A stretch of DNA of 64,000 nucleotides from positions 62,001 through 126,000 of the forward strand of contig JACQAG010000026.1 in assembly GCA_016195085.1 (NCBI GenBank), read 5' to 3'. The translations under genes were made by a program, and so were the position numbers. Below, piece after piece: positions 16,813 through 32,421 of this stretch. Under the pieces are notes generated by a model. It was given only the letters and a program-made list of their open reading frames with translations, searched no databases and was not told the origin of the DNA. Positions within the stretch are counted from its first letter, which is position 1; the number at the start of each line of letters is the position of its first letter. Source of the stretch: Pseudomonadota bacterium (GTDB lineage: Bacteria; Pseudomonadota; Alphaproteobacteria; SHVZ01).

Positions 16813-16922
16813 TTCGAGAAGCCCTGGGGAGAAGATTTCAGCTGCTAAGGCGACAACCTACCTTTCGCTTTTCAATGCGGGCGACTAGAGTACCGCCAGA
16901 CTAGAACGGTGGGAGGCGGGCC

Positions 16923-17519
16923 ATGAGCGTCGGCGGAGTTTCCACGGCGAACGCATTTCAGCCCCGTGTGACCCAGGTGCCGGCAGGCCTTGGGCCGGGC
17001 GTTCCCCCGCAAGCGCAGGGACAGAACGGGGGCCAGGGCGCCAATCAAACCCAGGGTACGAACCGTACACAAGGCGCCGGTCAGAACCAGGGCACCAACC
17101 AAACCCAGGGGACCAATCGCGCGCAAGGCGCTGGCCAAACCCAGGGCACCAACCAAACCCAGGGGACCAATCGCACGCAAGGCGCTGGCCAAACCCAGGG
17201 CACCAACCAAACCCAGGGCACCAACCAAACCCAGGGCACCAACCAAACCCAGGGCACCAACCAAGCCCAGGGCACCAACCAAGCCCAGGGCACCAACCAA
17301 GCCCAGGGCACCAACCAAATCCAGGGCACCAACCAAACCCAGGGCACCAACCGCACCCAAGGCACCGGCCAGACCCAAGGTAATAATCAGACCCAAGGTG
17401 GCAACCAGGGCCAAGGGCAGACGGGCGGGCAAGGGACTCCTGGGGGCGCGCAGCAGGCGGGCCAAGGAACGCCGCCGCCCAATGGCGGGCGGGGCCAGCT
17501 CCTCAACCTACACGCCTAG
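16923..17519 (+). CDS. Low-complexity protein with 21 GTNQTQ-type hexapeptide repeats
   Basis: This 198-residue protein is not recognised. A short non-repetitive start (MSVGGVSTANAFQPRVTQ) leads to 21 consecutive hexapeptides of the form G-[TA]-[NG]-[QR]-[TA]-Q (residues 39-164), then a Gly/Gln/Pro-rich tail ending RGQLLNLHA. There is no signal peptide, membrane segment or Cys. The composition is almost wholly Gly, Thr, Asn and Gln, suggesting an extended or beta-stacked polar polymer. The frame is chosen because a GGGAGG ribosome site precedes the ATG; the repeat, being a multiple of three, also leaves other frames open. A perfect hairpin follows the stop. The conserved-looking ends outside the repeats may be a targeting signature. 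Function unknown. Confidence 0.7.
   Translation: MSVGGVSTANAFQPRVTQVPAGLGPGVPPQAQGQNGGQGANQTQGTNRTQGAGQNQGTNQTQGTNRAQGAGQTQGTNQTQGTNRTQGAGQTQGTNQTQGTNQTQGTNQTQGTNQAQGTNQAQGTNQAQGTNQIQGTNQTQGTNRTQGTGQTQGNNQTQGGNQGQGQTGGQGTPGGAQQAGQGTPPPNGGRGQLLNLHA
17037..17414 (+). repeat. 18-bp tandem repeat array, 21 units
   Basis: The array encodes one hexapeptide per 18-bp unit (most common unit GGCACCAACCAAACCCAG). Units 1-9 form three copies of a 54-bp higher-order unit (GxNQTQ, GTNR[TA]Q, GAGQ[TN]Q). Units 10-17 are nearly identical to each other, and units 18-21 diverge. The mixture of an older three-unit period and a homogenised run indicates repeated slippage or unequal exchange. Confidence 0.95.
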
Positions 17520-17536: not shown

Positions 17537-17556
17537 GGCGCCGCCGAAGCGGCGCC
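17537..17556 (+). terminator. Hairpin terminator after repeat-protein gene
   Basis: GGCGCCGC-CGAA-GCGGCGCC is a perfect 8-bp stem with a stable tetraloop 18 bases after the stop codon. A short T-run (GTTTTGCC) follows about 15 bases later, so termination may be partial or Rho-assisted. Confidence 0.6.
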
Positions 17557-31158: not shown

Positions 31159-32421
31159 TCAGCTGGCGGCCTCGTCGTCCAGGCTGAAGGCCGCGCCGTC
31201 CTTGATCACCTTGTCCATCTTGGTATCGGTGAGGTTGGTATCGAGCAGGTTGGCCTTGGTCAGATTCGCTCCCGACAGGTCGGCGTGGCTCAGATTGGCG
31301 AAGCGGAGATTGGCACCGGTGAGATTGGCCTTGGCCAGCTTGACCCCGGTCAGGTTGGCGGGCCAGCGCCGCCCCGTGGGCTTGCCGTGGCCGTCCTTGA
31401 GGTCGACCGCACCGACGATGGCTCCTACGAGGTTGCACCCGGTCATGTCGGCATCGGCGAGATTGACCCCATCCAGCGTGGCCCCGCTGAAGTCCGTTTC
31501 CTTGAGCGAGGTGCCCGAAAGGTCGGACATGACCAGGAGTGACTTCGACAGCTTGGCGCCGTCGAGGATCGAGCCATGCAAATCGGCGCCCGAAAGGTTG
31601 ACCTCCGACAGGTCGATATAGCTCAAATCCGCCTTGACCAGGGTGGCGCGGGAGCCGCGCCTGCCGTCGGTGCGGATCCAGTCGTAGTGATTGGCCAGCA
31701 CCTCGCGGATGTCGGGGGGCAGCGAATCCTCGCTGCGGACGATGTTGGCGCCGGTCATGTCGGCCTGGGAGAGGTCGACGCCTTCGAGCTTGGCACCGTT
31801 GAGGTCCGCATGCTTGAGAACCGCATTGGCGATGACTGCGCCGGCGAGATTGGCCCCCTTGAGCGAGGCCCCGGTCAAATCGGCATCGACCAGGACCACC
31901 CCTTTCAGATTGGCTCCCGCCAGGTTGGCACCCCTGAGATTGCAGCCGGTGAGGTTGGCGCCGGAGAGATTGGCGCCCGACAGGTTGCAGTCGCTCAGCT
32001 CGGAATGTGCCATGTCGGCGCCATCGGGGTTCGCGATGCGGAACTTCGCCGCCTCGTCGGCGCTGTCCGGTCCGGCGGAGAAGAGCGTCCCGCCGCGGAA
32101 ATCAGCGCCTTTGAGCGAGGAGCCGGTGAAATTGACCTCCCGCAGCCGCGAGCCGCGCATATCGGCATTGTCGAGCTTGGCCTTGCGGATCGCCGCGCCC
32201 TCGAGATTGACGCAGAAGAGGTCGGCGTTCTCGAGGTTGGCGCTATCCAGTACGGCGCGATGCAGATTGGCCCCGGACAGCTTCGCCTGGCGCAGGTTCA
32301 TGCCGGCAAAGGTCACGCCCGCCAGATTCCGTAGGGAGAGATCCGCCCTCACGCCGCCTTGTTTGCGCTTCAGCCAGAGGTCGTGGCGATTGATTGCCTC
32401 GAGTATTTCACGCGGCGTCAT
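31159..32421 (-). CDS. Pentapeptide-repeat protein
   Basis: The 420-residue protein is made mostly of A-[DN]-L-x-x pentapeptides that fold as a right-handed quadrilateral beta-helix. Two repeat tracts (residues ~25-235 and ~270-400) are separated by a non-repetitive linker containing SEDSLPPDIREVLANHYDWI. The first ~20 residues form a helix (ILEAINRHDLWLKRK). No enzyme domain, signal peptide or membrane helix is seen. The same helix-plus-pentapeptide design occurs in PilZ-independent scaffold proteins, but no function can be assigned. Upstream, a TATACT sequence suggests a -10, but the -35 is unclear. A short AT-rich dyad overlaps the stop codon. Confidence 0.9.
   Translation of the reverse strand: MTPREILEAINRHDLWLKRKQGGVRADLSLRNLAGVTFAGMNLRQAKLSGANLHRAVLDSANLENADLFCVNLEGAAIRKAKLDNADMRGSRLREVNFTGSSLKGADFRGGTLFSAGPDSADEAAKFRIANPDGADMAHSELSDCNLSGANLSGANLTGCNLRGANLAGANLKGVVLVDADLTGASLKGANLAGAVIANAVLKHADLNGAKLEGVDLSQADMTGANIVRSEDSLPPDIREVLANHYDWIRTDGRRGSRATLVKADLSYIDLSEVNLSGADLHGSILDGAKLSKSLLVMSDLSGTSLKETDFSGATLDGVNLADADMTGCNLVGAIVGAVDLKDGHGKPTGRRWPANLTGVKLAKANLTGANLRFANLSHADLSGANLTKANLLDTNLTDTKMDKVIKDGAAFSLDDEAAS

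Follow-up and report, generated by a model that had tools for sequence, protein, structure and literature searches.

A hexapeptide-repeat gene likely to belong to an apparently undescribed family of short alphaproteobacterial proteins linked to flagellated genomes

An open reading frame (ORF) of 198 amino acids at 16923–17519 on the plus strand of the window (the whole stretch of 64,000 nucleotides analysed) is likely to encode a repeat-expanded protein from an alphaproteobacterial family that appears to be undescribed. Its members are short and disordered, share ends of the type M-x-[IV] ... RG[S/Q]-φ-φ-[DN]-φ-x-[VA] and appear to be tied to the flagellum. The family was absent from the literature searched, and the term undescribed also rests on Pfam and NCBIfam. 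The hexapeptide array inside the protein appears to be lineage-specific filler, with the conserved functional part lying elsewhere, because the repeat is missing from relatives whose ends are the same.

The gene can be read as a series of elements on the plus strand. A strong ribosome site, the Shine-Dalgarno sequence GGAGG at 16912–16916, stands 6 nt ahead of the ATG, and the start and end originally given for the ORF are borne out. The N-terminal end (MSVGGVSTANAFQPRV, 16923–16970) begins MSV and is thus of the M-x-[IV] type seen in most family members. An 18-bp minisatellite at 17037–17414 encodes the hexapeptides, and a degenerate G/Q/P-rich spacer (17415–17489) leads into the C-terminal tail RGQLLNLHA (17490–17516), which fits the family signature in full and runs with its stop codon to 17519. 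The body is of low complexity, with a Q/G/T/N composition and no known domain; the protein (P0001) matched no Pfam or PHROG family, and its NCBIfam matches to Ser-rich or cell-wall proteins were weak, far under the cut-offs.

From this tail we wrote the C-terminal pattern R-G-x-φ-φ-[ND]-φ-x-[AV]-stop, with the reversed pattern as a control. Composed after the window sequence was known, the pattern matched about 110 times across 385 genomes of alphaproteobacteria, some three times as often as the control, and the free position after RG was Ser in 52 of 95 valid matches. Besides the window protein it brought up 74 alphaproteobacterial proteins, short (typically 60–140 aa) and of low complexity, whose bodies differ and whose ends are alike—bearing out, for the C-terminus, the original prediction of conserved-looking ends, and confirming that the search it had proposed, by the ends irrespective of repeats, was the right test. 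Nine residues make a short signature for a family whose members are otherwise unalignable; as they were retrieved through this tail, only features outside the pattern count as independent evidence. With the window gene counted, Ser follows RG in 45 of the 75 family sequences, P or G precedes RG in 57, and an M-x-[IV] N-terminus occurs in 59, against 36 of 221 (16%) in the background; after removal of similar members, the last of these figures was 42/57 against the same 36/221. Some relatives resemble short forms of the window protein, among them L249 (MAISGIGSG...GGQGTGQGGSQATQQAGNQG...PPPPPAGSGRGQLLDIAA), which has a similarly G/Q/T-rich body and a similar spacer. A tail profile scored the window protein at 23.4; among 710 ORF ends from the window and from loci retrieved from its genome (G000), the runner-up reached −2.6. 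The score is partly circular, pattern matches having supplied the profile. Among 2483 long ORFs the full tail occurred in none, two pattern-retrieved flagellins aside. A scan of ten family members against Pfam and NCBIfam matched no family, and four members searched in plasmids returned no named example. A second pattern match in the window genome (C45, L241) looks like chance.

Matches to the pattern were linked to flagellated genomes, occurring in 69 of 222 FlgI-positive genomes (31%) versus 11 of 163 FlgI-negative ones (6.7%; p = 2e-9, with genomes treated as independent and kinship ignored). The reversed pattern showed no FlgI bias (18/222 versus 12/163, or 7–8%), and the excess is confined to FlgI-positive genomes, the FlgI-negative rate being equal to that of the control; the FlgI and control match lists were transcribed by hand. 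Upstream regions gave a second signal. With a CtrA box defined as TTAAN7TTAA, at most one mismatch, within 250 bp upstream, about half of the relatives carried one—36 of 73 members, against 7–16 for other spacings and 6.4 in shuffled sequences—and perfect boxes preceded 11 members, against 0–2 for other spacings. After removal of similar members the count was 28/57, against 6–11. The enrichment is specific to the 7-base spacing, and the box is not universal in the family; CtrA is known to activate flagellar genes in a number of alphaproteobacteria (for example, PMC6180460). Sigma-54 and sigma-28 promoters were not enriched upstream of the relatives, and the genes around them form no common flagellar neighbourhood, with response regulators, DUF2336, NUDIX and SecA present. 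Recurrent immediate neighbours across loci L202–L260 were DUF2336 (5/105) and response regulators (6/105).

The tail itself supplied a third signal. FliK ORFs end in [φ/R/A][DN]-φ-x-[VAI] at 27 of 30 loci (for example, GLDIRI and GVDVSI), whereas a tail of this type occurs in about 0.3% of other long ORFs; the window genome's own FliK (C54) ends GGVDVSV, and the last five residues of the window protein, LNLHA, fit the FliK tail φ-[DN]-φ-x-[VIA]. The FlgI-biased matches, the CtrA boxes upstream and the FliK-type tail together indicate that the small-protein family is tied to the flagellum. Besides FliK, the window genome encodes FlhA, FliF, FliG, FliN and FlgE. FlgI was not found in it, pointing to a gap or a loss and most simply to an assembly gap. 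In the flagellar cluster of the same genome we also noted a 788-aa ORF (L288:15205–17571, minus strand) that adjoins an FlhF-like gene (an SRP54-type GTPase) and has no Pfam match.

As the best explanation as a whole we tentatively favour, with a confidence somewhat short of probable, a repeat-expanded member of a flagella-linked family whose FliK-like tail docks on the export gate. The protein would be disordered, with two functional ends joined by filler; the hexapeptide array would act as a disordered spacer, with constraint on the ends to either side of it, and slippage or unequal exchange would have lengthened it by duplicating the 18-bp unit. The FliK-like C-terminal tail would dock on the flagellar type III export apparatus at its cytosolic face (the FlhA/FlhB C-domains), and the extreme N-terminus, which is non-polar, would serve as an export signal; the protein would then be an early export substrate or else a competitor or modulator of the FliK-driven export switch. 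The specific step in which the tail engages the gate is one we hold a little more loosely, as a plausible possibility; the FlhB gate-recognition motif F-x-x-x-φ occurred in the family no more often than in shuffled sequences (16 versus 16.1). Also weighing against the reading are the shortness of the shared tail, the failure to find FlgI in the window genome, and the lack at the window gene of a CtrA box, of flagellar neighbours and of an orthologue with the repeat. We infer further that the window gene is expressed, that its product is exported and meets a binding partner, and that it has continued in a function of the same kind.

A flagella-linked family member might instead be cytosolic and regulatory, its tail docking on a flagellar chaperone or on a C-ring or pole protein and its disordered body acting as a tether or spacer, with no export. 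Solitary genes with CtrA boxes do resemble regulators or accessory parts, and two flagellins (L231 and L261) bear the same tail, flagellin C-termini being chaperone-binding sites. Yet among large proteins this tail is commonest in FliK, the flagellar hook-length control protein and a secreted substrate, and we saw no sign of a specific cytosolic partner; we regard the cytosolic role, both in its docking and in its tethering aspect, as unlikely.

We consider it decidedly improbable that the tail match is coincidental and that the window gene is a real, lineage-specific low-complexity ORF unrelated to the family. Such a coincidence would accord with a pattern written with the window sequence already in view, with its chance-rate occurrence in FlgI-negative genomes, and with several features of the gene itself: the 250 bp upstream hold no CtrA box (the best candidate has three mismatches), flagellar genes are not adjacent to it, and we found no orthologue carrying the repeat. 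The scarcity of orthologues follows from sampling, as the order to which the window genome (4.8 Mb, 96% complete) belongs holds only seven sampled genomes. Against coincidence stand the match to the full nine-residue pattern, the fitting M-x-V start, the existence in L249 of a relative with a comparable body, the other flagellar genes of the window genome and the absence of the tail from long ORFs, bar the two flagellins picked by the pattern.

The 18-bp array is the strongest tandem array in the window, placed by Tandem Repeats Finder at 17033–17377 with 19.2 copies, 0% indels and a score of 375. At the protein level, the 21 in-register hexapeptides of the original prediction are confirmed, with a consensus of GTNQTQ; they are encoded by 13 distinct DNA units, and the exact consensus occurs in only six of the 21. 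Gly1 and Gln6 are invariant, while Thr2 and Thr5 are often replaced by A, G, N or I, so that the predicted recurrence of Thr at every third residue holds only for the consensus. Relatives of the full protein were found in none of the sets searched—its own genome, genus and family, species-level genome contigs, plasmids and PDB sequences. A search with an ends-only chimera returned nothing convincing. GxNQxQ repeats do occur, scattered across bacteria in unrelated proteins, and the hexapeptide composition is therefore convergent. Elsewhere in the window, a 15/30-bp tandem array lies at 31907–31987; its consensus hints at pentapeptide repeats.

That the repeat is itself the function—as a beta-solenoid, an amyloid-like surface fibre or an ice- or water-binding array—is very improbable. 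The regularity of the hexapeptide and the Thr residues in the second and fifth consensus positions speak for it, and AlphaFold2, run on the single sequence, does draw strands through the array. Its confidence, however, was low (mean pLDDT 61, pTM 0.44) and was matched by a control, a spurious frame read antisense through the array and drawn as helices at a pLDDT of 60.6; the program is known to predict confident but unrealistic beta-solenoids for repeats (PMC11795689). A Foldseek search of the model against the PDB gave no significant match (best E 5.3), no Sec signal was apparent by eye, and the relatives carry no such repeat. The surface-fibre and ice-binding roles proposed at the outset accordingly receive no support.

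The frame of the array ORF needed testing because the 18-bp unit is open in several frames, and two further long ORFs overlap the array. Synonymous changes among the repeat units exceeded expectation in frame +0 (0.43 observed versus 0.29 expected), and the third positions of the predicted frame take most of the distinct substitutions, unlike those of the APTKPR and LGLVGA frames. Taken alone, this substitution test leaves one antisense frame with the same third position, and the choice is settled by the ribosome site together with the ends. Given that ribosome site, the frame-consistent substitutions and the family-type ends, the ORF is very probably a real gene, as first proposed. The remaining explanation, a non-coding or decaying minisatellite that is open by chance, could appeal to the three long ORFs across the array and to a unit free of stops in several frames, but it is very improbable in view of the third-position and synonymous excess, the ribosome site and family-type ends that lie outside the array. 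The downstream hairpin that had been taken as a further mark of a gene is present as a perfect, GC-rich stem (GGCGCCGCCGAAGCGGCGCC, 17537–17556, plus strand), but is not terminator-like: it lacks a T-run, a terminator scan found nothing, and the region folds only modestly better than shuffled sequences (z −1.76). The 5' neighbour of the gene is a FAD-dependent oxidoreductase (Pfam DAO), and its 3' neighbours, on the opposite strand, are ORFs that read by eye as parts of a peptide ABC transporter.

More broadly, and more doubtfully, alphaproteobacteria may hold widespread, unannotated small disordered proteins, often under CtrA control, that bear the tail of the FliK export switch without its switch domain. 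Such proteins would tune the flagellar type III export gate or ride it, and the variable body of each, in this case a minisatellite, would act as a length-adjustable spacer. If so, the last nine residues, the M-x-[IV] start and often a CtrA box would pick out flagellar accessory proteins of alphaproteobacteria whose unalignable bodies hide them from domain libraries. The role of the last five residues of FliK would become testable beyond Salmonella, and the repeat protein would clearly exemplify how duplication in a minisatellite can lengthen a disordered linker held between two constrained ends.

Several known systems share features with the window protein or its family. Polar-residue beta-solenoids and antifreeze repeats are likewise built on a short, regular repeat rich in Thr, Gly, Asn and Gln, but there is no sequence or fold match to them and the window protein's relatives are repeat-free. 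YjfB-type putative motility proteins (PF14070) are, like the family, short, solitary and motility-linked, and we take them to have a G-x-x-φ-[DN] type of end resembling the family tail; the PF14070 model matched neither the window protein nor any of the ten members scanned, and those ten match no curated family. Flagellins (PF00669/PF00700) provide two proteins with a C-terminal tail of the same type, both retrieved by the pattern—L231:6513–7340, ending RGGLVNLFA, and L261:6540–7382, ending RGAVLNLFA—although flagellins are helical filament subunits and the small proteins have no flagellin domain. FliK (PF02120) differs in its size of about 500–700 aa and its folded Flg_hook switch domain, a domain lacking in the window protein (no Pfam match) and in the ten members scanned. 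Nevertheless, alphaproteobacterial FliK proteins (L291–L320) have a near-uniform [φ/R/A][DN][IVLM]x[VIA] end after a disordered G/Q/N-rich stretch. What FliK has in common with the window protein is a last-five tail, φ-[DN]-[IV]-x-[VIA] in FliK, placed after such a stretch; some FliK N-termini are of the family's M-x-[IV] type (MSVNAVTTQ..., MSVNTVND...), and FliK, found only in flagellar genomes, is tied to them as the small-protein family is.
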